Below are positions 1,176 to 25,510 of a stretch of DNA of 64,000 nt, piece by piece. Positions within the stretch are counted from its first letter, which is position 1. Every line of letters begins with the position of its first letter. Source of the DNA: Zasmidium citrigriseum (Eukaryota > Ascomycota > Dothideomycetes > Mycosphaerellales > Mycosphaerellaceae); contig NHNW01000003.1 of the NCBI GenBank assembly GCA_002786025.1, positions 868,001 to 932,000 of the forward strand. The letters are read 5' to 3'. The notes under the pieces are model-generated. The model was not told the origin of the DNA, did no database searches, and saw only the letters and a program-made list of their open reading frames with translations. A program made the translations under genes and the position numbers.

Positions 1176-3101
1176 ATGAGCGCGTCAAAGGCTTCAAGCG
1201 GAACCGCTGGCGCCGGCAAGAGACCCAACTTCCTGGTCATTGTCGCCGATGATCTGGGCTTCAGCGACCTGAGCTGCTTCGGCGGCGAGATCAGGACTCC
1301 CAACCTCGACAAGCTCGCCAGCAATGGCCTGCGTTTCACCGACTTCCATGCTGCGGCCGCCTGCTCGCCCAGCCGTGCCATGCTCATGACTGGCACCGAT
1401 CACCACATTGCTGGCCTGGGAAACCTCATCGAATGGACGAACCGCTCCGACCAGAATGCTCCCTCCGAAGGTGAGATCAAGTACTGGTCTACCGCTCCGC
1501 AGCGTGGAATGCCGGGCTATGAGGGCTATCTCAACGATCGTGTCGCTGCTCTGCCAGAGCTGCTCCACGATGCTGGATACCTCACCCTCATGGCGGGCAA
1601 GTGGCATCTGGGTCTGACTCCAGAGCGCTTCCCACACAAGCGTGGCTTCGAACGCAGCTTTGCCCATCTGCCTGCCTGCTCCAACCACTATGCCTACGAG
1701 CCACAACTTGAAGGCAGAGACCAGATCCCCGACTTCATGACCATGTCCTTCATTGCCCTGCACTCTGAAGATGGCGAGTATGTCAAGAAGCTACCTGAAG
1801 GTTGGTATAGCAGCAACGGCTACGGCGACAAGATGCTGCAGTATCTCAAGGACCGTAAGGACAAGAACGATGAGCGGCCTTTCTTTGCCTACTATCCTTT
1901 TACTGCTCCGCATTGGCCTCTGCAAGCACCCGATGAGTACATTGCTCACTACAAGGGTGTCTACGACGACGGTCCAGACGTGTTGCGGGAGAGACGTCTA
2001 CAGCGGATGAAAGAGATGGGCTTGTGTCCAGAAGATGTTGTGCCTCATCCTGTGGTGGCCGATGAGGTGAAAGAGTGGAAGGACTTGACACCAGAAGAGA
2101 AGGCCAAATCTTGCAAGGCCATGGAAGTGTTCGCTGCCATGGTCGAATGCATCGACGCCAACGTGGGCAAGGTCGTCAAGTACCTGGAAGAGACTGGCGA
2201 GCTGGACAATACATTCGTCTGCTTCATGTCAGACAATGGCGCTGAGGGCGCTGCGTACGAGGCATACCCTATCGTGCAAGGAAGCATGATTGGACATCTC
2301 AAGAAGTACTACAACAACACTCTTGAGAACCTTGGTCGTGGAGACAGCTTCATCTGGTACGGCCCACGCTGGGCTCAGGCAGCTACCGCTCCTAGCAGGC
2401 TGTACAAGGCATTCACGACTGAAGGCGGTGTCCGCGTTCCATTCCTGGCCAAGTTCCCCACGGGGATGAGTGTGCGGGCTGACGGCGAAGGCATGAGCAC
2501 CGGCATTGTCGAGACGAAGGGAGCTGGTTCTCATGTGACCAACGAGAAGGGCAGCATTACCAACCAGTTCAGTACTATCATGGACCTGGCTCCGACGATT
2601 CTTGAGATGGCTGGCGTCAAGCATCCCGCTCCCACCTACCAAGGCCGCGAGGTCGTGCACATGCGAGGAAAGAGCATGCTTCCATATCTCCAAGGTACGG
2701 CACCATCGATCCACCCAGCCGACTTCATCAACGGCTGGGAGACCTGCGGTCGAGCTGCCGTGCGCTGCGGAGACTGGAAGATCGTCTTCATTCCCAAGCC
2801 CAAGGGCCCTGAGAAGTGGCAGATGTACAACCTCGCCAAGGATCCTGGCGAGGTGAACGATCTGGCCGACCAAGATCCTGAGCGCCTCCAGAAGATGATC
2901 AAGATGTGGGACCAATACGTGCTCGAGACTGGCGTCATTCCTCTTGCGCCGGCTTTGGGCAACTGGATCGCGGCCATGGAGGAGCAAATGCCAGAGGACG
3001 CGTGGATGGAGTATGAGTACTGGAAGGAGGGTGCGAGAGACCAGCCCGAGAAGTTCAGAAGGGAAATCCCGAAGTTCCAACGTACCGTGACGGCTATTTG
3101 A
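1176..3101 (+). CDS. Sulfatase (arylsulfatase family), intronless
   Basis: The 641-residue protein is a formylglycine-dependent sulfatase, which hydrolyses sulfate esters. It opens with the family N-terminus FLVIVADDLGFSDL, whose paired Asp (about residues 25-26) bind the metal. The signature CSPSR follows at about residues 63-67; its Cys is the residue converted to formylglycine. AGKWHLG, APHWPLQAP and FMSDNGAEG are further active-site and metal-site segments. No signal peptide is visible, so the enzyme is probably cytosolic, as in fungal sulfur-scavenging arylsulfatases. Length is normal for the family. The start is the first ATG of the frame that leads directly into the domain. The substrate (choline sulfate, aryl sulfate or alkyl sulfate) cannot be decided from the sequence. 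Confidence 0.93.
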   Translation: MSASKASSGTAGAGKRPNFLVIVADDLGFSDLSCFGGEIRTPNLDKLASNGLRFTDFHAAAACSPSRAMLMTGTDHHIAGLGNLIEWTNRSDQNAPSEGEIKYWSTAPQRGMPGYEGYLNDRVAALPELLHDAGYLTLMAGKWHLGLTPERFPHKRGFERSFAHLPACSNHYAYEPQLEGRDQIPDFMTMSFIALHSEDGEYVKKLPEGWYSSNGYGDKMLQYLKDRKDKNDERPFFAYYPFTAPHWPLQAPDEYIAHYKGVYDDGPDVLRERRLQRMKEMGLCPEDVVPHPVVADEVKEWKDLTPEEKAKSCKAMEVFAAMVECIDANVGKVVKYLEETGELDNTFVCFMSDNGAEGAAYEAYPIVQGSMIGHLKKYYNNTLENLGRGDSFIWYGPRWAQAATAPSRLYKAFTTEGGVRVPFLAKFPTGMSVRADGEGMSTGIVETKGAGSHVTNEKGSITNQFSTIMDLAPTILEMAGVKHPAPTYQGREVVHMRGKSMLPYLQGTAPSIHPADFINGWETCGRAAVRCGDWKIVFIPKPKGPEKWQMYNLAKDPGEVNDLADQDPERLQKMIKMWDQYVLETGVIPLAPALGNWIAAMEEQMPEDAWMEYEYWKEGARDQPEKFRREIPKFQRTVTAI

Positions 3102-6167: not shown

Positions 6168-7200
6168 GTTGAAAGTGAGAGTTGGTGGATCGAAAAGATT
6201 GAGAAGACAGGTATGAGATGCGCTGATGAACTGCACCTGTGAAGAATGGACAGCCAAGACGAGACCTTTATATCTTGCGTCTCTGTAAGAGAAGTGACGA
6301 GCCAAATGTCAGCTCGCATGCATTTTACGCCTCAAGGCTCAAGACCATGCAGGTTTCGTTCAGCCCGTGTCTGTTATAGGCGAAACGGGAGTGAGGTCAG
6401 AGAGTACACTTCCAAAGAGGGCAATGCTGAGGGAATCGGAGAGTCAGAACAGTGTACAAGATTCTCACGTCGTGCGTCTGGAAATGAGCAGGACATGCCC
6501 CAGACCGTGTGATGGATCGAGGGCATTGAATCAGATATCTCCACGTGGTTGATCTAATGTTTGCGAGTGTTGGTTCTGACAGGATGCTTTGGCGGATTGA
6601 ACTGATCCTTGTTCTTGATTCCCTCTTATGGTCGTTGAAGAGTAATACGTCTGCCAATAGGATCCAACAGCCTGGTAGCGGCAACCGCATGCGTAGATTT
6701 CGAAGGGAGAACTTACCTGCACATCTCGCATTCGATTAGTCGTCTACCTTTTGCGATTCATGATCTGTTTCAGCCACATCGCACCAGCACTTCAGGTGAT
6801 GGCTTCTCGCAAAAATAGGCCTCTCTTCTGGACGTGGAACTGCTCAAAATCTCCGGATCGATCAGTCGTTGCATGATCAGTCTGAGACTCGATGGCGTGC
6901 TCAGTGAGGCAATTTGAGGCCGAGAGCTTTTCCTGCCTTCGCGGTGAGATTCATGGACGAAGCATGTCAGAGGGGCGTGCAGTGGAGGAAGGTCCAATGG
7001 ACCCGGATCAGGCGGTGGGAAAAGGTGCGCATCTTCATTGCTCAATCGGATGCAGCTCGCTTGCTGACTGCGGCATGCAGGTGATCAGGAAGGAGAAGTG
7101 AGAGGTTTGTGAAAAGTGGTGTCTTCTCCCTCGAAGGAGCTGCCAATAAACTCTAATGCCACGTTGATCTCAGCCGCTCGGAGAATTTGATTGATCCGAG
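6168..7200. other. intergenic region left of the mobile element
   Basis: This is the promoter of the NTF2-like gene and the left flank of the large element. Overlapping frames of 60-97 codons exist on both strands, but none has recognisable content. Base usage is normal here (CpA and TpG are common), so RIP has not spread left of the element. No partner for the coding-like remnant on the element's right side is seen. Confidence 0.45.
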
Positions 7201-7283
7201 GGTAGCCTGGACGTTTGAGTTTATTAAAACTATCGTCACCTAATCACCTTAACACTTTCGTTATCTAATTACCTTAACCTCCG
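7201..7283 (+). repeat. Left terminal inverted repeat
   Basis: It begins GGTAGCCTGGACGTTTGAG and aligns with the reverse complement of 25471-25381. Most differences are C/T or G/A transitions. It contains two direct sub-repeats, TCACCTAATCACCTTAAC at 7236 and TTATCTAATTACCTTAAC at 7261, the second looking like a RIP-mutated copy of the first. Such sub-repeats are typical transposase or integrase binding sites. The repeat still contains CpA, unlike the interior. Confidence 0.82.
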
Positions 7284-8400
7284 TCCCAATTGGGCCTAGT
7301 GTAACGGGCAGATCCGCTCCTCTAACCTTACCTCTCGACTTTAATAAACCTTTATCCTATTATAGTTTTACTATAAAGTAAGATTCGTACTTCGTAAAGA
7401 AATAGGCTAGAGTTATAATTAGGCTATTATTATTTAGAGTAGGGATATATTAGACCTACGCCTACGTATAAGGGAGAGTAAAGGAGTAAGCCGTTAGAGA
7501 CTATAATTAAAAGCTTACTATTATTACTACTCGATTTAATCGCTTAGAATTACGCTATCCTATATTTAGTATTAGTTAGGTAAAGGATTCTCTATTTAGT
7601 TCTTCCGCGAAGTAAGGGCTCTACTTCGTAGAAGAATAATAATAGGGAGTAAAGTAAAGAAGCGTATATAAATAGGGATAATAGAAGCTAAGAAATTAAA
7701 AAGGCTACTTTTTACTTATAGACCTCTACCTTCCTTCTTCTACCTATATATCTACTTTCGATAACTATCTTAAATACTATCTATATTATAATAGTTACTA
7801 TAAATATACTACCGCCGCTACTACCTACTATACCTAGCGCTTATTATTTCGTCCTATCCTTTATTAAGGATAATAAAGTTAGTCTTCTATCTCTTAAGTA
7901 GCATTAAGCGAGTTTAGAGCTAACTAGCGGTATAGGGTATTACTATCGGCTGCGCTAATAGCCTCTTCTATAGCGAGCTTCGCTTATAGTTTAATAAGAA
8001 TAGTAATCGTCGTCCTAGCCTTAGTCCTTATAAGTATACTTTTACGCGCTAGGCTTTAGCCTTTACCCGTACTCGCTCTATTAGTATATCTTCTTCTAGC
8101 GAACGATTAAACTTTAGATAATAGTATACTAACTTTAATATAGGCCGTCTCTTCCTTACTTACGCTTACGCTTATATCGCTACTTATCGTCTAGCTACTT
8201 ATACTACTCTACTTACTAGTACTCGCGCTTATCTCCTCGCCTACTCCTTTAGTACGTATTTAAATATTAGACTTTAGACGGTAGCTTACTAATATTAATA
8301 TAGGCTATAATCTACTCGCCTACGCCCGCGCCTATATTACTACTCGTTATTTAGCTACTACTTATCGTTTTACTAGTACTACTAGCGCTCTTCTCTTTAG

Positions 8401-9330
8401 TAAGTCTCTAATAACTACTTAAACTTTAAAGGATAGTAAGCTAATATTAATATAGTCTATCGCTTATAGGTACGCGCTTATAAGTATAGAGCTACTACTA
8501 CTACTAATACTCCTTCGCTATCTCTATCGGATTTCGATAACGAAATTAATAACTTATAAGTCTTCTAGTCCTTACTTAATCTATAGCTAGACTAGTAGCT
8601 AATATATAGATATAGCTTTATACCTAACGACGACGACTTTATAGGCCCTAAGCTTAATAATACTACTACTACTACTACTATTACTAGCTAGCCTACTATT
8701 AGCGATCCCTCTAGTTCTAGTCTAGTCGCTAGCTCTCTCTCCGCCTCCGCCGTCTCTATTATAGCCCTAGTAGCCTCTAAGTCTACTACTACTACTACTA
8801 TACTACGCCCTATTAGTTAGCTAAAGGGGTCGACGAAGGTTACTCTTCGTCGCCCTAAGTAGGAGAGTAAGTAGTAGTTAGTCCCTAAGTATAAGTAGGG
8901 TAAGCTAGAGGACTAGAAGAAGTCTAATAAGGATAGGCGCTACGCCTAGTCTAAGGTAAGTAATTTAGATCCTAAGCTAGCTATAAATCGATAGATCGCT
9001 AACGTTTTATAGACTAGCCGCCTTATAGAGGAGGATAGTATTCTATAGGCTACTAGGCCTTACGAGAACTACCGTTATAATAGTACGTAGTACTTAGTAC
9101 TACTAGAGGGCGGTAAATATATAAAGTACGTCTTTAACGTTAAGCCCTATAAGTCGTAGATAGCCGTTATTTTAGGTTACTATATAGCGTCTATCTACTA
9201 TACTATAAGCGTTTTACTATAGGCGTTTTACTATATTACGTCTATCTACTAGGTCCCTATACTTTAAGCTAGGCCTTAGAGCCCTATAAATAATAAAAGC
9301 TTACTCTATCTATATCTTCTTAGTTTCCTA
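8401..9330 (+). pseudogene. Latent frame B, unrecognised protein, RIP-inactivated
   Basis: In the frame starting at 8401 the translation reads like protein if TAA/TAG are taken as former Gln/Trp codons. An Asp-rich patch is followed by a Thr run (about 8671-8688), a Ser/Ala-rich linker, and a basic, hydrophilic domain with segments such as DPKLAINR, SRLIEEDSI and YIKYVFNVKPYKS. Upstream, three copies of a roughly 150 bp unit (near 8100, 8270 and 8420) carry the same sequence block but are not all in one frame. I do not recognise the family. It is transcribed toward the element's centre. True ends are uncertain because real stop codons cannot be told from RIP stops. Confidence 0.45.
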
Positions 9331-10116
9331 CTATCTTAATATTAAGTAACTCGTCTTAATCGCCTATCTTAGTTAATTAGTATTAACTCGCTCTTAAAGT
9401 ATAGCTTCGAGTATACTTCTAATTACTAGGATTCTTCTATAAAGCGGCGTATATATATCGTAGAAGAATTACTTATATTTAGAATATACGCTTACGTATA
9501 CTACGAATCGAATAGGTAGCTATACTCCTTATTCCTAACCTACGTATATATTTCTAAGGACTAGGATTTTTCTATAAAGTAGCGTATATATATTATAGAA
9601 AAATTACTTACCTTTAAAGTATATAGCTAAGCCCTTAAATCCTTAAATTAAATCGTTATCCTATATATACTACGAGTCGATTAAGCGACGCTATCCTCCT
9701 CCTTCTTAACCTCTAGCCTAGTAGTATACTTCTTCTTAACCTCTAGCCTAGTAGTATAATCCTTCTTCTTAACCTACTTCGCTAGAATAGTAACGCTAAG
9801 TAGTAGGAAGGATTAGACATCTAGTATAGCGATACGGGAGTAAGACGTAGGCTAGTCGAGTTATTATAAGTTACGCGTAGGAGTAGAAGATATTATAAGA
9901 TAGATAAGTTCTTCTATAGGATAATAGTATACTATACGTACTAACGGGGATCCTTATAGCTTAGTAGTATATAGAGTATCGAATTCTCCTACGAAGTAAC
10001 GGCCTAGCTTTATAGAACTAAGAAGAATTAGTAACCTTACTAAAGAAACGGAACTTAGGTACCTCTTATATTAAGTATTTCTATTAGTAATAGTACTATC
10101 TAATATATCTTTTACG

Positions 10117-10680
10117 AGCCCTACTACTTACGTCCGCGCGATTAGTAACTTCGGAGAGATAACGTTAAGTACTAGTATTACCGTTAAGAGTCGTAAATAT
10201 TATAATCGCGTCGTTCTAGCTCCTTAGGAAGGCTCTACGCTTATAGCTAGTTTTCCCGCTCGAGTCTCTAATATATTAGAAGTTATTTAGGAGCGGGCTA
10301 ATAAGATATAGGCGTATAGAGGTTATAGATTAAAGATTAAAGATAGAGGATATAGAGGTATAGAAGTCCTAGATACGTTAATAAAGCTATAGTAGGTAAA
10401 TAAGCTACTAACGCGTATTAAAATATAAGTTACGCTATAGATAATAGATATACGCTATATCTAGTATAATATCTATAGTAACTCGAGAGATCTTAGCCTA
10501 AAGTACTAGGGTTACTTAGGGTAAATATATCTACTAGGGTTAGGGACTATAAGGTTAGTATACTATTAATATAGCTTAGAGGTAGCTCGTTTTTAAAAGA
10601 ATAACTAATAGATCGATTTAAAAAATTACTATATAGTTAAGGAAGCTAGTATAAGAAGTAGAGTATCTAAGGGGTAAGTC
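10117..10680 (+). pseudogene. Latent frame G, unrecognised protein, RIP-inactivated
   Basis: The frame from 10117 (triplets in step with AAG at 10501) gives about 188 codons interrupted only by TAA/TAG. Segments such as GEITLSTSITVKSRK, GSTLIASFPARVSN and RGYRLKIKDRGYRG have normal protein composition, with basic and hydrophobic residues alternating. No domain is recognised. The preceding hairpin-rich sequence and the 57 bp tandem array behind it probably mark non-coding spacers. Confidence 0.4.
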
Positions 10681-10974
10681 TTTAATTTTACTATAAAGTA
10701 GAATATATATTTTATAGAGAAATAGTTAGCCGAGCTAGGTATTAAAGGACTTCTAAGATATAAATATAAGTAGAAGGGATAGATAAGGCTAGAGTAGTAA
10801 TCGACGAAACTCGTAGACTCGGTCTAATATAAAGTAAGTAACTATAGTTAAAGAGTAACGAAAAGGGGTAAGCTAGTTAAAGAAACGATTTACTATACTA
10901 GTAGTTAGGGAAGATTACTATATTCTAGCTACGAAGACGGCTCTCTTACTACTAAGATAGCTCTAAAGGCTTAA

Positions 10975-11225
10975 AATAGCTACTATCTAATAGTAGGGAG
11001 AGCTCTAATACTTAAGATCTACTACTATCTAACCTTAGGGGCGGCGAGATACTTAAGATCTACTACTATCTAGCCTTTAGGAGCGTTCTAATACTCGAGA
11101 TCTACTACTATCTAGCCTTTAAGAGCGTTCTAATACTCGAGATCTACTACTATCTAGCCTTTAGGAGTATTCTAATACTCGAAATCTACTACTATCTAGC
11201 CTTAAGGGCGGTAAGATACTCTAAA
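10975..11225. repeat. Tandem repeat, unit about 57 bp, five copies
   Basis: Units share AGATCTACTACTATCTAGCC followed by TT(T)AGGAGCGTTCTAATACTCG or a RIP-diverged version. The copies are close to identical apart from C/T and G/A changes. Confidence 0.75.
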
Positions 11226-11654
11226 TAGTCCGCTATCTATCGTTAGTAATAGCTCTAATACCTAAGATACTATAGTTATATTATAAAGAGTAGCTACTAA
11301 GACTCTAGCCTAGGAAACGATAATTATATATAATTTTCTATAGGTTAAGGTATAGTATATTCGTATTATATATATATATATATAGCTCGCCTAGCGTAAG
11401 ACGCTAACCGCTAGGCGTAGAGACTAGCTAGTAGCTAGCTCTAAAATTAAGAAATAAGTATAACTTTAAATATTATTAAATTAATACCTATACCTATACC
11501 TATATCTATATCTATATCTATACCTATACTTATACTTATACTTATACCTATATTAGTCTATATACTACTAGCCTACCTATTATATTATATTAGTATTCTT
11601 AGTATTAAACGCCTACTTCTACCTTATAATTATTACCTTACGCCGCTTTACTAG

Positions 11655-12105
11655 AGTACGCGGACTAACTACTATAGCTAGTAGCTATCTATACGCCTCC
11701 GAAGGAAATATAAAGTAGTAGTTCGGTCCCTCCTAGTACTACCCCTCTCTAGGTAGATCCGTCTTAGTATAGTTATCTAGAATCGGTAGAGATAAGTAAC
11801 GCCTAGTTAGCGTAAAACGGTTTATAGAGTCTAGTAGGTAGTAGTACTCGAGGTTAATATCCTTAGTACTAGCGACTTTAACGAATTAATAGTAGATAGT
11901 AACCTTACGAATAATATTATAGACGTTAGGAATACGATCCTTAGTATACTCGAGCTATATTATATTAGTATCTACTAAAGTAAACTAATAGATAGAATAA
12001 GTAACCTAGCGCTACTAATACTTATAGTATACGTCGTCCTTATACTAGAGTCTTAGCGTCTTAGGCTTAGTCGAGAATAAGCTCTATATCTTCGAAGAGC
12101 CGGGT
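11655..12105 (-). pseudogene. Latent frame F, unrecognised protein, RIP-inactivated
   Basis: Read leftward from 12105, the frame gives about 150 codons with only TAA/TAG interruptions. Segments include STKPKTLRL, TKDRIPNVYNIIRKVTI, VKVASTKDINLEYYYLLD and RRYLSLPILDNYTKTDLP. The alternation of charged and hydrophobic residues and the clear LLDSINRF helix speak for a former globular protein. It is the leftmost member of the minus-strand block that includes the integrase. The family is not recognised. Confidence 0.45.
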
Positions 12106-12584
12106 AGAGTATTTAAGAACTTAATATTAGGCGAGAGTAACTTATAGTCGGCTATTATCTACTATACGTTAGTATAGTAGCTAGTATAGTAGCGATTAGA
12201 TATACTACTTCGAGAAATAAGTTAGTATAGGAGTATAATTTAAAGTATAATTAAAGGGCTATATATTTAAAGGAGGTAGTTATTACTATTATCGTTAGTA
12301 TCGTAAGGAAGAAGAGGAAGAGGTTAAGAGCCTATATATATAGCTAGCTCCTACCTCTATATATACCCGAATTAATACCTATTATGTATAATTAGGAGAT
12401 TACTAGCGCTAAGGGTACTTATAATACCTATTATAGATTTAGGCTACTATTAAGGCGGCGTCCTTATAAAAGCTAAGCTATATATAATACTCGAGTATAG
12501 TAGCTTATATTATCGATATTAGGATACTAGTAGCCTTACGAATCGATCTAAGGTATACTATCTCTCGAGATATCTCTATAGCTT

Positions 12585-12663
12585 AAAGTAAGAAAGAGGA
12601 TTAAATTTCTCTACGAAGCTAGGCTATTACTTCGTAGAGAAATTTAATCCTCTTCCTTACTTT
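12585..12663. repeat. 79 bp near-perfect inverted repeat (hairpin family)
   Basis: The arms AAAGTAAGAAAGAGGATTAA... and ...TTAATCCTCTTCCTTACTTT surround the family core (CTCTACGAAG ... CTTCGTAGAG) with an 11 base loop. Arm mismatches are few. The outer arms are unrelated to those of the 24293 palindrome apart from the core. Confidence 0.8.
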
Positions 12664-13634
12664 CTCTAACCCTATATTTATTAGAGATACTATACTAATT
12701 ACTAATATATAGTAGGTTTATCTAACGAGTAATCCTACTAGCCGTAATAGTAAACGATAATAGTAGATAAAGCTTAAATAATACCTAGGAATATAATACT
12801 CGAATTTCTCTACGAAGGTATCTCTATTACTTTATAGAAGAACTCGAGCGTTATAAGGTTAGGTAAAGTACTATAGAATAGGTTAAAGAGAATAAGATAA
12901 GATAGTAATTGTATTTAGAGAAGTATATATATTATATATCTAGTTCGTTTATTACTACTTCTTTATTAACTTTATCTCGCGTTAAGATACTAATACTTTC
13001 TATACCTACTATAGCTTCTTCCCTTTCTATTAGTAAATACCTTCCTACTAGACGCTATCCTCCTAGACGCCCTTCTACTAAATACTATACTACTAAATAC
13101 CCTCTTATAGAACGTCTTCTATATCTATATCTACTATTAATAGTATATAGCTCGACCTAGTCCTAGAATCGAGAGCCGTCGAGAGTAGTTCCTACTACTA
13201 GTATAATCCTTACTAGTATCGATAGATATTAGATATCTAGTTTAACTAAGGCGACTAATAACCTATAGGCGGGAGTATAGTAGGGATAGGGTCTTTATTA
13301 TAAGTAAACGAAATCTTAGTCTATTCGACGATAGTATCTATTATATTAAGTAGAGGCTTTAGCGGCGGCTACTTCGTCTTCTTACTCTTCTTACCGCCTA
13401 ACTTAGCTAAGCTAGAACCTTTCGAGCCTAGAGCTATCTTCGAGCCTATAGAGAGTATAGTAGACTTTAAAGCTTTAGATAGTTTAGTCTTCGAGTTACC
13501 TAAGTCTTAAGTCTTTCTAGTATATAGTTTAGGGATAGTATTAGGCTTATCTAGTAGTAGTCGAAACGTAGGCTATAGCTTCCCTATCTTAGCTAGAACT
13601 AGCCTTACTAAGCTCGAGCCTTTACTAATATTAG

Positions 13635-13740
13635 ACTCTTACTTAATACCCGCCTCTTACTTAATACCCTCCTACTTAATACCCTCCTACTTAATACCCT
13701 TCTACTTAATACTCTCCTACTTAATACTCTCCTACTTAAT
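13635..13740. repeat. 15 bp minisatellite inside latent frame A
   Basis: Seven copies of CTACTTAATACCCTC and close variants; one copy is longer by three bases. On the minus strand it is in frame with latent frame A and would encode a five-residue repeat of the Ile/Met-Lys-Gln-Glu-Gly/Ser type. Confidence 0.75.
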
Positions 13741-15392
13741 ATAAACTACTTCGCTAGTATTATTACGTACTAGCTACTTACGTATAGAAGGATCCTTTAC
13801 TATTTATAAAACCTCTACTATTATAGGGAGTATTTCTTCTCTATCTAAGTTAATAAAGATAACGTTAAATAATAGTTCTCTACGAGAATTATTAATATTA
13901 ATTACTATTTCTATTAAACTACCTATATTATTATTTCCTATAGGCCGTTAGGCTTTAGAGGTTAGCTAGTCGTCGCTCTAGCTAACTAGGCGTAGCCGCT
14001 TTAGATTATCTAGCCGGACTATAGATATCTTACTACTTAGTTATAGTTAGGCTAAAGGGATCTTATAGGTTAGTTAAGTCGTAGGGATCTTAAAGATTAG
14101 TTAGATAGTCTAATAGATTAGTTAGGCTATAAGAAATTCGTCGAGTTATTAGCTTCTTAAGATTATTAGTAATATATTACTTTCGTCGTCTAACGATACG
14201 CTAGGAGAGAGGTAGTTACGCTCTATTAGACTATTATTATAGAAGAGGCTCTTATTATTAGTAATACCTAGAATCGGACTTAATCGTCGAAACTACGCTA
14301 GCGAAGAACGTACTATAGTAGAAGTCTAAGTACTAGTAGGTAGTTTAATAGGTACTTAAGTACTAGCGGGTAGATTAATAGGTAGTTCGATTATAGCGTA
14401 GACGTTAGGAGATACGTCGAGCTTAGGCTCGGACTCCTCTTCTATATTATAAAGTAACGTAATCTTAACTTAACGTTCCTACTACTTAGTTAAGCGTTTA
14501 TTTAAGAGTTTAAAAGGTAGAAGTATATTATCTAGGTTATTAGCCTCTCGAGAGGTAAGACTAGGGTATTAAGGCTTATTCGTATAGCTATCGAATCTAG
14601 TAATAAGGAAGCCGTCGAAGTAGTTCTTTTCTACCTACGTAATCGTAAAATCGTCCCTTACGTCCTAGTATAAGCGGAAATATAAGCGCGAGTTACGCTA
14701 ATTAGCTAGCTAGTTCTTAATTACGAAGTTATATAATTTATCTCTATATACTATTAACTAGAAGTTAAAGGTAATCTTACCCTTATCGTACTTCTAAGTC
14801 TAAGGGTTATTAACGTTCCCTATAGTTACTAGAACTATATAGATATTAACTTAGAACTTAATCTCCCTAGGAGCTACCTTCGATTAGAATAGATAAGAAG
14901 GCTCTACTAACGAAGTATAAGGTAGAAACGAGGGTAGTAATAAGCGATCTTTAGTTAGTCGAGGCGGGCGAGTAGACGCTACTAGTCTAAGCGGATTACC
15001 TTTAGTACTACTAATCTTCCGTTTTTTAGGCTTCTTCTTATTCTTATTAAGAAGATCCTAGGCTCGTCTATTAATAAAGGCCTAAAAATCTATAGTAGTA
15101 GTCGTTAATAGGCTAGGCGTAGAAGCGTTTATAGGTAGGCTAGACGTAGAAGCGTTTAAAGGTAGGCTTAGTAGACTATTATATATAGTAGCTCCGAACT
15201 CTAGCTCGTATAGCCTAGGTTCTAAATTCGTATTAATTAGGCTATATTATAGGTAGACTTCGAGACTTTTATCGTATCTTAATAGCTAACTACGTAGGAG
15301 TTTAGAATAGAAAGGGGTCTAATTAGTAACTAGTAGAGGTATATTTAATATTAGAGGTAGATAAGTATATTATCGATAAATAAGCTATATAC

Positions 15393-15651
<259 letters not shown>

Positions 15652-16164
15652 GCGAGGTAGATACGTACCTAGTACTAGTAAAGTATATATCTATATATAA
15701 CGTCCTTAATTTAGTAGCTTACTAGTAGTAGTAAAGACGGCGACTATACGATCCTACGGCTATAACTCGTATCGATTAGGGGGCTTAAACTTATCGAGTT
15801 TACCGCTAGCGTTAAGGAAATTAGTAGCTCGATCGTAGAGGTAGTAATATACCCGTAAATAGAGCTTCTTCTCTAGGTTATTAGGGTCTAGCTTACTACT
15901 ATAGAATCGTAGCGGGAAACCTATAGCCTATAGCTCTCTATTATACTAATTAAGAGTACCTAATAGTAGATAGGAGTTAAGGTCTAGATTCGTTAGCGTA
16001 TATACTACTTAGGCCGTATATCTAAATATAGCGAGTTCCTCTTAGCGATTAACTCGACTTAGCGATTAACTCGACGTAGCGTACTAGCGTAGCTATAATC
16101 GTAGCTAATCGCTAATAAATAGCTAGTACTCTACTATTATTATATTAAGGCTTAATTTAAAATT

Positions 16165-17450
16165 AAGTTACTATAACTATAGTCTATAACCTTAGTACTA
16201 AAGACTAACTCCTAAGCCGTATTAATAGGAAGATATACGTACTAAATAACTCTACCCTCTCTAGCTATTACTATACTATAGAGTCGTTAGTATTAAGTAG
16301 TACGCTATAGAACTCGGCCTCTTTAAGCTTAGGGTAGTCGTAGAGTACCTTTAGAATTCCTTAAGGGCCCCTAGTTTCGAGATTTTACTTACGAATACTA
16401 TATAAGTTCTAGCTTAATACGAACTTATAGATAGTATACTAAAGGATAGGTATATAGATAGTAAGCTAGGTAACCCGATAGGCCTTATTTATACTATTAT
16501 AGGCGCGTATAGCTACTATACGATCCTATAAGTTACGCTATTAGTTAATTATAGCCTTTACGATCTCGCCCTACTAGTATTCGATAGTCTAGTTTCCCTT
16601 ACTTATTATATACTAGAAGTAGTCGTTAAACTCGAGCTTAGTCCCTTCTATAAGTTTATAGAGCTATAGATATATATCTACTAGTATTAGTATCTTAACC
16701 CCTTAATTAGAACGTATAATTCGAGGGAGCCGTCCTAATAGATATATAGTAAGTATATAATACGTAAAGACTAAGAACTTCGTCTTAGCTAGGTATCTAA
16801 TATAATACTATATAATCTTCCGCGAGTATACGTTAATATAAGTATATACCGTAATTCTAAAATACGGGTAGATCTTATAGAAGGTATTAATAGAGTATAT
16901 ATTATCTAGTCTAATTACTTATAGGCGTATACTTTAGGGACGACGCTTCTTTCCTAGGCGCCGTACTTTAAATACTAATTTTACTTTTAATCGTACGAGT
17001 CGATAGATACGATCCCTTCTAATAAGGCGCTATATTCGATAAAGTATCGCTATAAGCTCTTAGTATCTAATATTCTATTTTATACTATAGCTAAGGATAT
17101 AATCTAACGCTATATTAATCTCTTAGTTAACCTCTTTAGGATTTCGGTTCGTATACTATTAGTAGAGGTTTATCTTATAGCGAAGTTATTTAAGTCGATA
17201 TACTAATAGTACGAATCCGTCTAGTCTTAGTATATCTAAGGTCGTCTTATTATTAAGCTATATATCCTAGAAGAGCTTAATAATCCTCGCCTTTAGGCGT
17301 CTCTCTACTTAGCCCTCTCTATACTCTCCCTTCGGTTACGTTAAGATACTCTAGTCTACTAATCGTCTATTAAGAGTAGCTAATAAGATACGAATACTAT
17401 CTACGCGGAGGTTAGAGCGGACTTTATCTATAGTAAAGCTATTATACTTA
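16165..17450 (-). pseudogene. RIP-inactivated DDE integrase (integrase core domain family)
   Basis: The minus-strand frame, with RIP stops read as Gln/Trp, shows the layout of fungal and metazoan cellular integrase core proteins (rve-like fold). A helical N-terminal region contains RLRYKINLY and later IRRDRIYRL. The core follows with YSINTFYKIYPYF, VYTYINVYSRKIIWYYI, LPRIIRSN and, after RIP stops, TIEYWWGEIVKAII, then a C-terminal stretch IYIPIL...SWNLYSIRKQ. The catalytic positions are N, N, E now: codons 16886-16888 and 16706-16708 read AAT, each preceded by T, so both are explained by GAT to AAT at TpG. The Glu at 16580-16582 is intact. D-D spacing is 60 residues and D-E 42. This would be the recombinase that moved the element. 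Exact start and stop are uncertain. Confidence 0.78.
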
Positions 17451-19939
17451 ATTTTCCTCTCGATTTTAGTACGCTTTACGTCGAGGTTTAGTCTTAGGCG
17501 AGGTATCCTATCGTTCTTACTTAAAGAGTATTAAAGAGAAAGGGGCTATAGTCGCCTCGATAATAATATTTATATTACCTACTCTTCTATTAAGGGCTAG
17601 AAATACGGAAGCGCTAGTAGATATTTAAAACTTTTAATTATTCTATAAAGCGTAAAGACTATAAAGTAGTAAATAATATCTACTAGCTTCCGCGGCTACT
17701 TAGAAGGATCGTCGTCTTATAGACTAAGTTAGTATTATTAAGACTCCGAGAAGTACTCGCTTACTTATTATTACTATAGGTAGTAGGTTAAGTTATAATT
17801 ATAGGCTATATTAGGGCTAGCGGGTTTATTACTCTTCCCTAAAGTAAGATAAGTCGCCTAGGCTACTAAAAGGAGGTACGACGTCGCTTAGATAAGGATC
17901 TATACGGCTTAAGTTAGCCTATAAAAAGGGCGAGGCTTTAAATTTATCTATAAAGTAAGAAACGTACTTTATAGATAAATTAAAGATTATAGCTACTTCT
18001 CTTATTCTTTAGTAGCTATTAATAGTAGTAGCGAGTAGGCTATTAATATTCTCTAATATACTAGACTTAGAATATATATTACGGTTAGCGATAGCGATAA
18101 CGATATTAGCGTATATACGTCGATTAGCTAAAGAATAAATAACGCTAGTTTATATATAAAAGATTATTCTTCTATAAAGTATTCCTATAGATATCTATTA
18201 GCGCCTATTCCGCCTAGCTAATAAGTAGATTTAATATATCTATATCGTACTAGAAGATATTTAATTATAGGTATATTATCTTTAACTTCGTAGAAGAGTT
18301 AAAACTTTAGATACCTACTAGCGCGTAGGTAGATTAGGCGAATAGTTAGGAAAGCGCTTTTTCTACGAAGTAAGAGCGCTACTTTATAGAAAAATAGCTT
18401 TCCTAAAAATTCTATATAATATCCTATCTTAGCTCTACTATTAATAAATATATTAATACTACTACCTCTCTCTATTAGAGCGCTATTATTCTTCTATAAA
18501 GCGATACGTATACGTCCGAATCGAATTCGTAAGCTCTACTAATAAGTTTCCTTTCTACTACTATCCTTCTACTACTCTTATCGCCTTTACCGCTAAGTCC
18601 CTCTATTACTACTAAGTCTCTCTATTACTATTTCTATTACCTAGAGTCCTTCCTACTAGCCTAAGTATTATAGAAGAGGAGGATTACGCTTAAAGAGAAG
18701 GGTTATTTAGCTACTAGGTATAATAAGTACTTTATAAAGGAAATACTTACCTCTACTATCGTAATTATATACTTATTAACTAGGCTAAGGCTAGGGAAAT
18801 ATATATAGTACTACTATCTATATTAATATTAAAGTATTAGGTAGACGGGCGGAACGGGAACCTTATATATAGGCTATAAGGATATAGAGATCTAAGGTTT
18901 AGTATAAGATCCTCTTCTCTACTAGGTATCGTATTAACTAGCTAGAGCTAGGAAATAATACCTTTCGCTACGACTAATCTAATAGCTATAGTTAATAACT
19001 AAAGCCGGATAGTATAGATTATTAGTATACCGTAGAGGATAAGGATAATAATATTCTTATAAGTAAGTAAAGTACTAACTATTACTAACTAGGGCTATTA
19101 GTTCTATAAATAAACTAGTATTCCCTAGTAGACCTTTAAGTAAAAGAGTATAAAAGGGCTAAGGAGATATATAGCGCTAGTCGTTATTAAGCGTAAACGT
19201 CTTTAGGCTTTATTAAAAAGTACCTAGGACCTAAGTATACTCTTATAACTAATAGTACTAGATAACGACTAGTATAAGCCGCCTCTTTTATAGTCGAGAT
19301 TAAGACTATATATAGTAAATAGTACCTCTCGTAATAATAGTATAGATAGTTTAACGCCTTAACGCTAGAGTATTATTATAATAGGCGGAGCGTAGCTATT
19401 AAGGTCGTTATAAGTAGTAACTAATATAGCTAAAGGTAGGTAACCCGAAGGCGACTCGTAGGCTCGCTTACTAGTACCCTATTAATAACTAATAGACTTA
19501 GATAGACTAAGTAAGAAGGATAGTAATACTTTTATAGTTAGTAACGCCTACTAATCTACTAGAATCTTATCGATTCTAGTACTAGATAAGAGGATATATT
19601 ACGCTATAGCTAGCGGCTAACTAAATAAGAAGGATAAGGTATAAGGCCGACTAAGTAGAATCTTATCGATTCTAGGTAGATAGCGATAGTACTAAGTAAA
19701 GGAAGTAAAGCGGTCTAGCGATATCTACTTTTCCTAACCTTTATACTAAAGTATAAAGTAGTCTAGCGTCTATTACCTTCCTAGCCTTCGTAGAAGCTAA
19801 TAACCTAATAGACGAAGCGGTCTAGTAGTCTTCGCCTTTCCTAACCTCTACTAAAGTAGAGTAGTCTAGCGTCTACTACCTTTCTAGCCTTTATAGAAGC
19901 TAATAGCCTATAAGCTAAAACCTTTTAGGTACTTAGTTA

Positions 19940-20280
19940 TTTAGTAAGGTAGATAGTAGCTAGCCTACCGCTTAGTTTAACGTCGTAAAGCTAGACGGAA
20001 ACTAATACCTATTAGCTATTACTACTACTATTAACGAGACGGGTAGTAACTAGGTTATCGTCCTATACTAGTAGGTATTAGAGGTTAATAAAAGGAAGAA
20101 GAAGGAAGAGCGCGCGTAATAAAGTTTTAAGCTCGTATAGGTAGCCGCGTAATATAACGTTAGTATAGGTAAGGTAAGGTATTTAATAGTAATAGATATC
20201 TATATAAATAGCTAGAGTTTATAGAGTTTAGACTTAGGCGTTTTTAAGAAAGAGTTAGAGGTAGGAAAGGATAATTTAGC
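19940..20280 (+). pseudogene. Latent frame E, unrecognised, RIP-inactivated
   Basis: A plus frame in step with TTT at 19976 gives about 110 codons with only TAA/TAG interruptions. Segments are FNVVKLDGN, YLLAITTTINETGSN, VLEVNKRKKKEERA and FKLVQVAAQYNVS. The composition is protein-like and ends in a basic, then mixed, helix. It is bounded on the right by a hairpin copy at 20282. No family recognised. Confidence 0.38.
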
Positions 20281-20821
20281 TATTCTTCTATAAAGTAGTA
20301 GCTTTACTTTATAGAGAAATTCGAACGTAGGACTATCCTAGCGCCTATAGGTAGGTTATTATTAGGCTTATCGCTCGTAATAGGTATTACTACTAGCTAC
20401 TAAAGTTACCTATTTTTCTACGAAGTACTAGCCTAGCTTCGTAGAAAAGTTCTAAGCTCTAATAGCTAGTATAGACTCCCGCCTTTAATAATAGATAGTA
20501 ATATAATCTATCCTTAACCTTTCTACGTTTAACTTTATAGCCGCCTAGGCCTACGTTAGTAGTCTTATATAAAGAGGAGAACTATAGTTATAATATAAAG
20601 AAGGATAATAATAGCTAGATAGAGTAGGGTAAGGAGTAGGCTAGAGATACTAATATCTAGAGCTATACCTATTTAATATAAGTAATTCTCCTACGATATA
20701 TATATACCGCTTCGTAGAAGAACTATAGTAATTAGAGGTATACTTAGAGTTATAAGTTAAGAAAGATTTATACTAATTAACTAAGATAAGCGACTAAGAT
20801 AGGCTAGCGATTTATTTATAT

Positions 20822-21500
20822 ACTAAATTCTCTTCTTCTTCTCCTACTTCTTCCTCGTCTTCTCGTCCTCGACCTTTACCTAGCTCTCCTTAATATAGTA
20901 TCTATACGTATATTATCGCTAGAGTATAATTCTTCGTTAGTAATACTAGAGGCTATATTCCTAACTATATCTTTACTAAATCTCTTAATAAGCTACTCTT
21001 TCGTCTCGACTAGTAGAGATTCTCTATATAGTCTAGTCTTAATCTAGTAGAGGTAGTAGATTACCTAACTACTAGCTAGTCCTAGTATTATTAGGAAAAG
21101 AAGAGAGGAAGGGGAAGAGAGAGCTAAAGAAAAGGAGGGGGTTAAAGAAGAGGCTAGGCCTAAAGGTTATTATTTCTCTAAGTATAGCTAGAATCCTCTT
21201 CCTCTAGCTTCTTTAGTATACTACTATCTATATTAGTAGTCTTAGGTAGTAGATAGTATAGAATAGTATAAACGCCCGTCTCCTCCCTAATCTCCTATTA
21301 CCTTCTCTACTACTAGCCTAACTCTACTACTAGCCTAATATAGTAGCCTAGGACTACGACTATATAGTACTTAAGGACATAGATAGCGTTAGTCTTAGGT
21401 AGTAGATAGTATAGAATAGTATTAACGCCCGTCTCTCTCTAATCTCCTATTACCTTCTCTACTACTAGCCTAATATAGTAGCCTAGAACCGCGACTATAT
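20822..21500 (+). pseudogene. Latent frame C, Ser-rich to Arg/Gly-rich protein, RIP-inactivated
   Basis: The frame in step with 20822 begins with a Ser/Pro-rich stretch, then a globular-looking part (IYTYIIARV, FFVSNTRGYIPNYIFTKSLNKLLFRLD, SSLNLVEVVDYLTTS), then a strongly basic EKKRGRGRES segment and a Ser run. The far end runs into a direct duplication of about 150 bp (21239-21391 and 21392-21510). I cannot assign a family. Interruptions are only TAA/TAG. Confidence 0.42.
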
Positions 21501-21510
21501 AGTACTCGAG
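21239..21510. repeat. Direct tandem duplication, unit about 120-150 bp
   Basis: The block starting GTCTTAGGTAGTAGATAGTA at 21239 recurs at 21392 with the same order of sub-blocks. The second copy lacks about 20 bases in the CTACTACTAGCCTAA part. Differences are otherwise mainly transitions. Confidence 0.75.
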
Positions 21511-21954
21511 GATAGAGAGCTATATACTTTCTAGGAGTCCTAGTTAGGGTAGAGGAGTTAGTAAAGTTAGTAATTTCTCTATAAAGAGTAACTACTACTT
21601 CGTAGAGAAACTACCTACCTCTTCGATTCCTATCGCTCTATATAATACCTCTAGTACTTTAACCTATATACCTAACGGTCGTCGATAGTAGTACTACTAG
21701 TAGTATATACGAATAAGATATTAAGGAATCTAAAGATAGTATATACCTAACCTAGTTATATAGCTTTAAGAAGTTCTCCTTTAGTAATATAATAATATAT
21801 CTTAAACCTAGTAATATCTCCTATAATAGCCGTATATTAATATATATAGTCGCTATAGTTACGCGACCTACTTATTATACTCTCTAACTCTCGCGACGTT
21901 TAGATACGTCCGTACTACCTTTTAACTAGTTCTATATAGCCGTTATCTAGTTTA

Positions 21955-22175
21955 TAATTCTATAAGTAAAGGCTCGTCTTCTCTAGTATCTTATACTTAT
22001 AATACTTTAAGTAAAGGCTAGTCTTCCCTAGCCTCTACTAGCTTAGCCGTTATTTTATACTTATAATACTTTAAGTAAAGGCTCGTCTTTAAGTAAGGTC
22101 TCGCCTTTTAGCCGTTATCTTATACTTATAATACTTTAAGTAAAGGCTCGTCTTACCTAGCCTCTCTAGAACTCT
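21955..22175. repeat. Tandem repeat built on a 30 bp block, four copies
   Basis: TTAAGTAAAGGCTCGTCTT preceded by ACTTATAATAC recurs near 21960 (partial), 22000, 22060 and 22125, with spacers of about 30-40 bases. Confidence 0.65.
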
Positions 22176-23184
22176 AGGATATAGCTAGAGGTAAGCCTAT
22201 TATACGTAATAGGACCGTCTATCTATTCCGCTCTACTGTCTATAGCGATAGTATCGTAGAAGATAGTACTAGTAGTACTCTTCTCTAACCCCTTATTAGG
22301 ATTAAAATAGATTAGGTTATTAAAGGAAGAAGAGTCTAGTAGCTATAAGGAGTCTAATATAGGCTAGAAGGTAGCCTCTATATTAGAGCCTATAGAGCCT
22401 ATACCCGCCTAGCTATCCTAGCCTAAAGGGTAGCCTAAGGGGGGGTCCTACTACTCCGCTCTACTAGCGCTACTATCTATAGGGGGCCTAGGGAGTCCTC
22501 CGCCTAAGTAAGGAATATATAGTATTCGCTAGCTAAAGGAAAAGGATTAGAGTAGTATAAGAGTAGTAGATATAGGCTAGCTAGTAGTCTATACGTCGTC
22601 TATATTACTAAAAGTCGCTTATAGTAATAGTAAACGCTAATTATATATAGTAGTAGGTAGTCTAATACTCCTATAGAGTTACGAATTCTCCTATAAAGCT
22701 ATACTATTACTTCGTAGAATAATTCGATATTCTAGTAACTAGTAACGACGCCTACTATTACGTATATTATACTAACCCTTAGAATTACGACTATAAGCTC
22801 TATATAGCCTTCTTCCTTCTACCTTCTTCTTCCTCTATAACGAATAGTTAGACCTAAGTATATCTAGGAAGCTTTCTAATACCTATAGAAGCTAGGCCTA
22901 CGTTAGTAGTCTTAGATTAAGAAGGACGAGAATATTACCTAAGCGAAGTAACTTAAGAAGAAAGATAGGTTAATTTAATCTTTAGTAAGGTATTAAATTT
23001 TTCTATAAAGTCGGACTAGTACTTTATAGAAAAACTCGATCTCTATTTATTAGTAAGGACCCTCTAGTACTATTATTAGTACTTTAGCCTCGACTTCTTA
23101 TCTTCGCCTACTTACTATTAAATACTATAGGGCGGACGAAGTTATAAGACGTTAAGTATAAACGGACTAAGGTAGTTTCTAGGC

Positions 23185-23585
23185 CTAGTAATTATATTAT
23201 AGTCCTTAGCGTTAGTAGAGACTTCGAATCGATCTACCTCTATACTAGTATTATATTATAGTCCTTAGCGTTAGTAGAACCTCTATACTAGTACGGCGAT
23301 TATATTATAGTCCTTAGCGTTAGTAGAACCTCTATACTAGTACGGTAATTATATTATAGTCCTTAGCGTTAGTAGAACCTCTACGCTAGTACGGCGATTA
23401 TATTATAGTCCTTAGCGTTAGTAGACTTCGAATCGATCTACTTCTATACTAGTATAGCGACTATATCCTAGTCCTTAGTATAGCGACTATATTATAGTCC
23501 TTAGTATTATTAGAGACTTCGAATCGATCTACCTCTATACTAGTATAGCGACTATATTAAAGTCCTTAGCGTTAGTAGAGCCTAC
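23185..23585. repeat. Tandem repeat, unit about 48-60 bp, about eight copies
   Basis: Each unit has TATATTATAGTCCTTAGCGT TAGTAGA, then either ACCTCTATACTAGTACGGCG or a longer form with ACTTCGAATCGATCTACCTC. Long and short unit types alternate irregularly. Confidence 0.75.
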
Positions 23586-24292
23586 GCCGCTACTAGACTA
23601 AAAAACTTTAAACTAGCCGAGTTAAGTCGATTACCGCTATTTCTAGCGTCGGCTAATTAGAGGGCGAGAAACCGTATTAGATATTCGCGTAATTCTTATA
23701 TTAGATAGACGTATTAACGCGATCTACTAGTATATAGCCTAAGTAATTAATATAGGTATTACTACCCTCTATACTACCTTTACTACTATCTCCGCCCTCT
23801 ACTATATCTTCTCGTACTATACCTAACCCCCTTATCCCTAGGATCTAACGACTATCTACCCTATCCTAGGATCTATTACTCTACTACTCTTTTCGTCCCT
23901 ATCGCCCCTTCTATCCTTCTACTACCCCTATCTACCTTATAGCGAGTTAATACTAAGCCTAAACGAGATATTATATACTATCTACTATCCCTATCCCCTA
24001 ATATATAGTAAATTACGCTCTTATATTATATATTAGGTTAGTATAGCTTAGCTAGTATAACTCTAGTTTCTCTAAATAATAAAGTTTATTAAAAGATCTC
24101 TAAATACCTATATTATATAACGATATCGATTAATCTAATTTAATTAATTAATTTAAATTAATTTAAATCGATCGATTTAATAAACTCTAATAGTAGGTAA
24201 TTTAGGGTAATAAGTACTTCTTTTTTACCCTCTATTACCCTTTAATTAATATATAAGTTTAGTTCTATACCTAGCTCTAAGGAATACGAGTA

Positions 24293-24376
24293 TTAGGAAA
24301 GGCGAGGTAGCTCTATTCTTCTACGAAGTAGTAGCTACTACTTCGTAGAAGAATAGAGCTACCTCGCCTTTCCTAA
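24293..24376. repeat. 84 bp perfect palindrome (member of the hairpin family)
   Basis: Two 41-base arms meet at a GC centre. The left arm begins TTAGGAAAGGCGAGG and ends ACGAAGTAGTA; the right arm is its exact reverse complement. One base further out the pair is A against G, which again fits a RIP transition. It lies about 95 bases from another hairpin copy (24436-24473), just beyond the 3' end of a latent minus-strand frame. Confidence 0.85.
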
Positions 24377-24470
24377 CCTTAGTCTTAGTACTACGATTAG
24401 CTCTATATATAGGCCTAGGAAGGGAAATAAGCTACGTTCTTCTATAAAGTAAGTATATTACTTCGTAGAA

Positions 24471-24861
24471 GAACCGCTACCGACGATTATCCTAACTAGA
24501 ATCTAATATATCTCTACTTAATATAACTCTACTATTATCTAATATAAGCTAGAATAAACTTCTATTATATTCCTCTTAGTTAAGCTAAAGGGCTACCTAT
24601 ACGTTAGCTATTTCTTACTCTAACTTACTAATACGAGATAGAGCTATATCTAATTACTCCCTTATCCTACTATAATCCTTCGTCTTAAGCTACTCTTCGC
24701 CTACCGCCTCTTTTAACGCCGCTATATACCCTATCTTATCTATCCTTTTATAGTAAGTATAGGCTATATTACCTCTTTTCTAGTAGACTCGATAAGGTAT
24801 ATTATTACTAGGCTAGAGATACTAAGAATATAGCGACGGAGCCGCCTTACCTATAGTACGT
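24471..24861 (-). pseudogene. Latent frame D, small coiled-coil protein with paired Tyr/Cys positions, RIP-inactivated
   Basis: Read leftward from about 24861, where an ATA may be a former ATG, the frame gives about 130 codons interrupted only by TAA/TAG. It contains YRVY, then YTYYKR; TAC here can be former TGC (RIP at TpG), so these could have been Cys pairs of a small zinc site. A strong coiled coil follows (SRIREQLDIALSRISKLE, then EIANVQVAL and NQEEYNRSL). Cys-pair plus coiled-coil layouts occur in many fungal DNA-binding or element-linked proteins. This is the latent gene nearest to the right inverted repeat. Family assignment is inference. Confidence 0.48.
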
Positions 24862-25380
24862 TAGCTACTTAGGTAGTTAGCCTTTAGTATAAGCGGTATA
24901 AGACTTACTTTTGTCTGTTTCTATTATTTAACCTATACTATCGAACTTCTATATTTAATTAAGAGCGTTTATTCTCTTAGTACTACTACGCTTAATATCG
25001 TTAACGTAGCTATTCTACTACTCTTAGCTAATATACTAGAAGTCGCTAGGAGTCGTCGTATCGGGCTTCTAGAACTCGTATATCTTAATCTATTAAACGT
25101 CGATATATTATATTAGTAGTAGTATAGTAATAGTAGTAGTAGTAGTAGTAGTAGGTATTAAATTAATACGTAGAGTAGTTAGGCGGGCGGTAGCTTAATA
25201 AGGGCGATAGATAATAGATATACGGTAGAAGGAAGGGTATATATTAATAGTATACTTCGTAGATTAAAGAAGAAGGCGTTATATAATAAATATATATAGA
25301 AATAATAATAACTTATTAACGCTTAGATTAAAAGGGTAATAGATTGACGGGCAGAGGTGCGACGAGGTGATCAGAAGAGC

Positions 25381-25471
25381 GGAGGGTTAAGCTAAGGAGG
25401 TGATTAGATGACAAAAGGGTTGAGGTGATTAGGTGACAAAGGTTTTGATAAACTCAAACGTCCAGGCTGCC
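25381..25471 (-). repeat. Right terminal inverted repeat
   Basis: Read on the minus strand it begins GGCAGCCTGGACGTTTGAG and follows the left repeat for about 80 bases. It differs from the left end mainly by C where the left has T, so it is the less mutated copy. The sub-repeat TCACCTAATCACCTCAAC lies at 25436-25419 and a second, TCATCTAATCACCTCC, at 25412-25397. The coding-like right flank starts immediately outside. Confidence 0.82.
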
Positions 25472-25510
25472 GCCATCCGCGCCGCCGACGAGATCGGCAT
25501 CGTTGTGTAA
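25469..25510 (+). pseudogene. Possible 3' remnant of a gene cut by the element
   Basis: Directly against the right inverted repeat is a 13-codon stretch with GC-rich third positions, ending AAIRAADEIGIVV and TAA (25508-25510). It overlaps the last three bases of the repeat. The codon usage resembles real genes in the window, but 13 codons are weak evidence, and no matching 5' part is seen left of the element. Confidence 0.3.

Follow-up and report, generated by a model that had tools for sequence, protein, structure and literature searches.

A large mosaic family of probable integrase-type DNA transposons destroyed by repeat-induced point mutation in Zasmidium citrigriseum

Results

Boundaries, ends and mutation signature

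The DNA analysed here is a stretch of 64,000 nucleotides from contig NHNW01000003.1 of the fungus Zasmidium citrigriseum (the window, in which position 1 is the first letter), and it contains an element of 18,277 bp at 7198-25474, whose features are collected in Table 1. An earlier note, made from the letters of the window alone, had reported matching terminal inverted repeats, and those at 7201-7274 and 25398-25471 are indeed 74 nt long and 86% complementary. The sister copies and the target duplication described below place the limits of the element 3 bp further out on each side, which brings the inverted ends to about 77 nt. The tips of the element (GRGRGKRGCCTRRACGTT) begin with G and are G-rich.

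Inside the element the observed/expected ratio is 0.01 for CpA and 0.02 for TpG, against 1.15 and 1.24 in the left flank and 1.15 and 1.09 in the right, which bears out the near-absence of these dinucleotides remarked on before. The low-GC block almost free of CpA and TpG spans about 7,320 to about 25,350, and the GC content of 1-kb intervals is 0.26-0.38 wholly inside the element and 0.49-0.59 wholly outside it. Fungal repeat-induced point mutation (RIP) has nearly abolished CpA in the 18-kb element and has destroyed the copies. The outer 120-150 nt at both ends, where RIP fades (7198-7320 and 25350-25474), retain some CpA and TpG. The left fade zone ends about where homology to copies with other types of end starts (7288-7320), so that RIP in this element ends about where the sequence common to the copy types begins.

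Table 1. Features of the element, in window coordinates
Feature	Position	Strand	Remarks
Target site duplication, left copy	7194-7197		ATCC
Left terminal inverted repeat	7198-7274	+	tip GAGGGTAGCCTGGACGTT
Shared backbone, left part	7320-13107		
Possible coding block	8400-9000		length divisible by three in 7/8 indels against three copies
Internal inverted repeat, left arm	9354-9479	+	also in the C127, C13 and C110 copies
Probable coding block beside integrase	13410-15400	minus weakly favoured up to 13.7 kb	6/6 C127 indels are multiples of three
9-bp tandem repeat	15305-15700		C127 copy 243 bp shorter there
Latent DDE integrase	16301-17650	-	codon-position and synonymy signal, relatives, catalytic spacing
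Integrase, aligned core	16364-17080	-	
Integrase, predicted catalytic codons	16832-16834, 16706-16708, 16580-16582	-	D (reads N), D (reads N), E
Shared backbone, right part	17696-25056		
Internal inverted repeat, right arm	20661-20799	-	
Right terminal inverted repeat	25398-25474	-	tip GGCGGCAGCCTGGACGTT
Target site duplication, right copy	25475-25478		ATCC

Copies in the genome and target duplications

A search of the genome (44.4 Mb in 148 contigs) for the ends, as the earlier note had proposed, found further copies. The left end matched at C127:1010392 with 94% identity and the right end at C73:423202 with 89%; contig C127 is colinear with the window from the left tip to 25,100, and C73 takes over at 25,096 and continues through the right tip. 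In both, the match runs 3 nt past the repeat originally reported, and the limits given above were therefore adopted. At the break point between these two halves AACGT flanks the insert on both sides, which by eye looks like a nested insertion, possibly of the long terminal repeat (LTR) type. RIPed DNA nested in this second copy covers C73:423572-453000 and C127:1027755-1029636; because the part at 427-444 kb of C73 is RIPed evenly and to an intermediate degree (about 22-52 CpA plus TpG per kb), it may be a different, younger insertion.

A search with the whole element, in which the best 25 of 88 candidates were scored, returned at least 130 matches on at least 15 contigs, with long ones on C13, C91, C1, C110 and C2; the window and C127 copies are not among the matches listed. 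The fetched relatives are RIPed wherever they match the element. The C13 copy is uninterrupted (167828-185860), and the C1 and C2 copies were each read at one end.

An exact 4-bp target duplication is present in all five copies with two readable ends, and their flanks differ: ATCC in the window, CTTT in C127/C73, CTAC in C13, CCTA in C91 and CTAC in C110/C75, with C127/C73 and C110/C75 each pieced together from two contigs. Among the duplication lengths from 2 to 8 that were checked, only 4 matches at the tips. A 6-bp duplication, possible for C13 and C91 if the terminal CC were target sequence, was rejected: the other three copies disagree, and the right tip GGC recurs in five copies. The element belongs to a mobile family that has inserted several times in this genome. 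The copies and their target duplications thus uphold the original proposal of a single mobile element, some 18.3 kb long, with inverted ends and a DDE integrase, killed by RIP; they also dispose of the two findings named as able to overturn it, namely that no other copy exists and that the ends come from unrelated insertions.

The integrase gene

Transversions, which RIP does not make, were used for tests of codon position. The strongest and longest signal confined to one codon position lies at 16.2-17.7 kb, where four intervals of 600 nt that overlap one another give chi-square values of 11-30 and another scan gives 15-32. Synonymy is highest in the minus-strand integrase frame, with 79/164 and 59/152 differing codons compared with 59/170 and 44/156 in the runner-up frame. 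The catalytic spacing D-41-D-41-E is found in all four aligned rows examined, three of which read N for D at one or both places and one of which reads K for E. At the amino acid level the window integrase is 90% identical to that of C127, 61% to that of C13 and 57% to that of C110. These sequence comparisons give good support for a real latent gene, whose frame was under selection before RIP.

The integrase appears to relate to the Pfam family rva_4 (PF24764) through the intermediates L041 and L043 only, an assignment made in this way because the window copy itself has no match to the model. Its identity to four rva_4-model loci is 40% (L041), 30% (L042), 27% (L043) and 30% (L044). L041 scores 26.2 bits and L043 25.8 bits against a family cut-off of 26, and three of the seven aligned integrase rows match rva_4 at E values up to 10. 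An rva_4 profile search of the genome listed four loci, none over the cut-off, and an Escherichia coli control also matched below it. Further rva_4-group integrases, also RIPed and sharing 27-40% identity with that of the window, lie at C79:368993-369493, C70:488766-488927, C94:1172093-1172248 and C76:247297-247476, and represent other integrase-type families in this genome.

A protein database search with the window integrase gave 3526 candidates, none at E 1, and one with the seven aligned rows, in which the best 7997 candidates by word sharing were scored, gave none at E 10. A control with a RIP-simulated host sulfatase, which belongs to a large and conserved family, retrieved 971 proteins, many of them fungal; at that sensitivity the database therefore holds no close intact relative, and distant ones may be missed. 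A search of solved structures returned one chance-like match (E 1.1), the structure model has a mean predicted local distance difference test (pLDDT) score of 59, and a literature search for rva_4/PF24764 gave unrelated papers only.

Other possible coding regions

The block at 13.4-15.4 kb, mostly without DNA alignment to C13 or C110, probably codes, with in-frame repeats, though the frame tests conflict. In the comparison with C13, a plus frame reaches 231 bits and a minus frame only 216; synonymy puts the minus frame slightly ahead up to 13.7 kb and a different frame beyond; the fewest stops (56/799) fall in a plus frame; and the minus reading has no Pfam match. A second minus-strand frame was at first convincing here, but the plus frame scored higher, and the region is kept as a coding block only. 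For 8.4-9.0 kb the indel lengths give just a hint of coding.

The remaining element has no consistent coding signal in codon-position and synonymy tests between copies, and stop density, six-frame comparison and synonymy ratios revealed no further gene in the element. Weaker codon-position signals (chi-square 10-18 in intervals at 7680, 19200, 19440 and 23280 in one scan; 6.4-8.8 in seven intervals in the other) have no frame behind them. A seeming absence of C127 indels at 11.4-13.2 kb was discarded as coding evidence, the alignment piece there not having been included. The lack of a signal is weak evidence and does not prove the backbone non-coding, for complete copies differ very little along it and the more distant relatives appear to have decayed neutrally. 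Of the several long latent frames noted before, the integrase and, with probability, the block at 13.4-15.4 kb are thus borne out, and the support for multi-gene content extends to one gene and one probable coding block.

Pfam gave no match to the six X-masked frames of the element, searched in halves, including none to polymerase B or DUF3435, and none to the integrase pieces of the window. As a control, four host genes put through saturating simulated RIP kept 73-76% of their residues; among the three then searched, the sulfatase (2e-27) and CorA (1e-26) were still strong matches, and a WD40 protein was weakly found (best 2e-5; WD40 itself 0.017). A gene for a polymerase, helicase or recombinase that was conserved and unbroken would therefore probably have been seen, and a divergent or split one would not; the integrase of this very family is a RIPed gene that Pfam misses. 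The suggestion that the element falls outside Starships, Helitrons and Polintons is accordingly supported, not proved. The host sulfatase lies in the window at 1176-3101 and is 90% identical to that of Pseudocercospora musae and 88% to that of Dothistroma septosporum, which puts the fungus close to Mycosphaerellaceae.

Mosaic structure of the copies

Four copies were compared in detail by transversions in window coordinates. In the left backbone (7.9-9.07 kb) the window differs from C13 at 5/1167 positions and from C110 at 2/1167, and in the integrase at 96/879 and 144/1073 (Fisher p 2e-30 and 1e-45 respectively). For C127, which has the same ends as the window, the contrast is reversed: the backbone differs at 44/1145 positions and the integrase at 4/1100 (p 1e-9). 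Between 11.2 and 12.9 kb, outside the coverage of C127, the window differs from C13 at 8/1693 and from C110 at 77/1635. Five pairs of different type have 1.1-3.4% transversions over 7.3-10.1 and 17.7-21.9 kb, with single 600-nt backbone intervals reaching 9.5%, highest beside the right end and in a C127 patch at 7.8-8.4 kb; in the integrase the same pairs have 11-14%. Over the outermost 120 nt on the left, types are 20-26% apart (an alignment that barely holds, with the slices from C13 and C110 shifted by several bases relative to the tip), and the window and C127 show 0% difference. C91 has tips of the C110 type, and its integrase is 94% identical to that of C110 over 267 amino acids and 62% to that of the window.

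Three end types thus appear to pair with three integrase types (window and C127; C110 and C91; C13), and the backbone groups the copies differently, which suggests that ends and integrase go together on a shared backbone. The simplest reading is that exchange between copies made the mosaic; selection is a less simple one, the coding part being the more divergent. We also prefer exchange to a history in which different transposons captured the same backbone again and again. This history of ends and integrase against a shared backbone appears to be new here and, if the family holds up, allows one to ask how a transposase and its ends change together while the remaining element is shared.

Internal repeats and palindromes

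Besides the internal inverted repeat in Table 1, short palindromes TTCTAYRAAGTA..TACTTYRTAGAA are dispersed across 7356-24478, some of them also in the C13 and C127 copies and none, by strict pattern, in the flanks in the window; a perfect palindrome with 42-nt arms lies at 24293-24376. In relatives on C90, C13 and C123 (L030, L027, L034) the counterparts of 7.6-9.1 and 18.3-20.8 kb are near neighbours that face opposite ways. We considered whether these loci (on C13 at 1-10 kb) had undergone inversion between the internal repeats, but no integrase was found next to the blocks.

Discussion

Interpretation

The ends, the 4-bp duplication in five copies, the integrase frame with its catalytic spacing, the mosaic and RIP together point to a dead 18-kb integrase-type DNA transposon whose copies exchanged sequence before RIP destroyed them, a reading to which we give a probability of roughly 0.8. 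The centrally encoded DDE integrase would have recognised the inverted repeats at both ends and placed the element between target cuts staggered by 4 bases, so duplicating the target; the family would have inserted several times, and exchange between copies would have left one backbone combined with three or more types of integrase and ends, before RIP set in. That this integrase moved the element, and did so by cut-and-paste, is what we infer.

Several points weigh against this account. About 13 kb of backbone is without an explained function; the integrase pieces of the window, C110 and C91 do not match Pfam rva_4; and no intact relative was found and no movement seen. The three types rest on few members, and most of the backbone difference between the window and C127 falls in the single patch at 7.8-8.4 kb. 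The halves of C127/C73 and of C110/C75 sit on separate contigs, and C110/C75 were paired only after CTAC had been noticed, which is weaker than the pairing of C127 with C73, backed as that is by the break point that the two share and by AACGT.

A non-autonomous or composite element, in which a small integrase transposon swallowed some 13 kb of unrelated, partly repeated DNA that became the silent backbone, would account for the lack of consistent coding signal, the internal repeats and dispersed palindromes, and the differing histories of backbone and integrase; it is nevertheless improbable, as the backbone recurs in many other loci and is of similar length across end types (18,033 bp for the C13 copy, 18,277 bp for the window). 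Slightly less probable still is a virus-like element, of the Polinton/Maverick kind or another, in which RIP has left the genes for polymerase and capsid unreadable. The expected size (15-20 kb), inverted ends and integrase agree with this, a large share of the element has no explanation, and even the integrase of this family escapes Pfam; yet no polymerase or other Pfam match appeared in six frames, although the RIP-simulated sulfatase and CorA could still be recovered, and the duplication is 4 bp rather than the 6 bp made by Polintons. A segmental duplication or assembly repeat, which the likeness of the copies along most of their length might suggest, was rejected as very improbable, since the flanks are unrelated and the 4-bp duplications differ at the same tips.

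Comparison with known systems

Polintons/Mavericks and Starships are large multi-gene mobile elements, the former also with an integrase and inverted ends, and the latter using a tyrosine recombinase. The element here differs from Polintons in having no polymerase B match in six frames, an absence that the control supports and does not prove, and from Starships in having no DUF3435 match in six frames and a DDE integrase and inverted ends instead.

An integrase-like DDE frame between inverted ends, with a short target duplication, places the element among a broad kind already known. Ginger1 and Ginger2/Tdd likewise have an integrase-type transposase and inverted ends, and 4-bp duplications are given for Ginger1 and most Ginger2 in their description (PMC2836005). 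The same source gives Ginger1 targets as CCGG or CCGT, its start as TGTNR and its length as 2.6-7 kb, whereas the present family has mixed targets, tips starting with G and a length of 18 kb. Ginger2/Tdd, set beside the element by description, shares the 4-bp duplication. IS3EU/GingerRoot and IS481EU are also integrase-like DDE transposases outside any LTR element; according to their description (PMC10045372), the former has mainly TA..TA tips and 6-bp duplications, neither of which is found here, and the latter, from parabasalids, duplications of about 4, 15 or 25 bp. Styx of Zymoseptoria, also a DNA element of fungi, shares inverted ends, an integrase called as the transposase and further open reading frames, and two end groups are described for it; in its description (PMC10853768) it is 7,927 bp long, with 36-bp ends, 6-bp duplications and GATA, CCHC and DUF3577 genes. 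The 18.3-kb element, with its ends of about 77 nt and 4-bp duplications and with GATA, CCHC and DUF3577 domains not found, is set apart from Styx by description.

Among the papers listed in literature searches, most subscription journals aside, no 18-kb integrase-type fungal element with 4-bp duplications was found. The earlier suggestion of an undescribed element type nevertheless goes too far, since other DNA transposons already have transposases of the same integrase-type DDE group. A tentative and rather doubtful reading is that giant integrase-type DNA transposons of fungi form a new superfamily, whose integrase, adjoining block and both ends were exchanged as a unit on a common backbone of about 13 kb; if true, one cargo would have been carried in turn by transposases of different specificity. 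The element in the window is real and well bounded. It represents a new family, mosaic and of unusual size, that belongs to a known kind and does not make a class of its own; should the family hold up, fungi gain a large integrase-type member among their known giant mobile elements.

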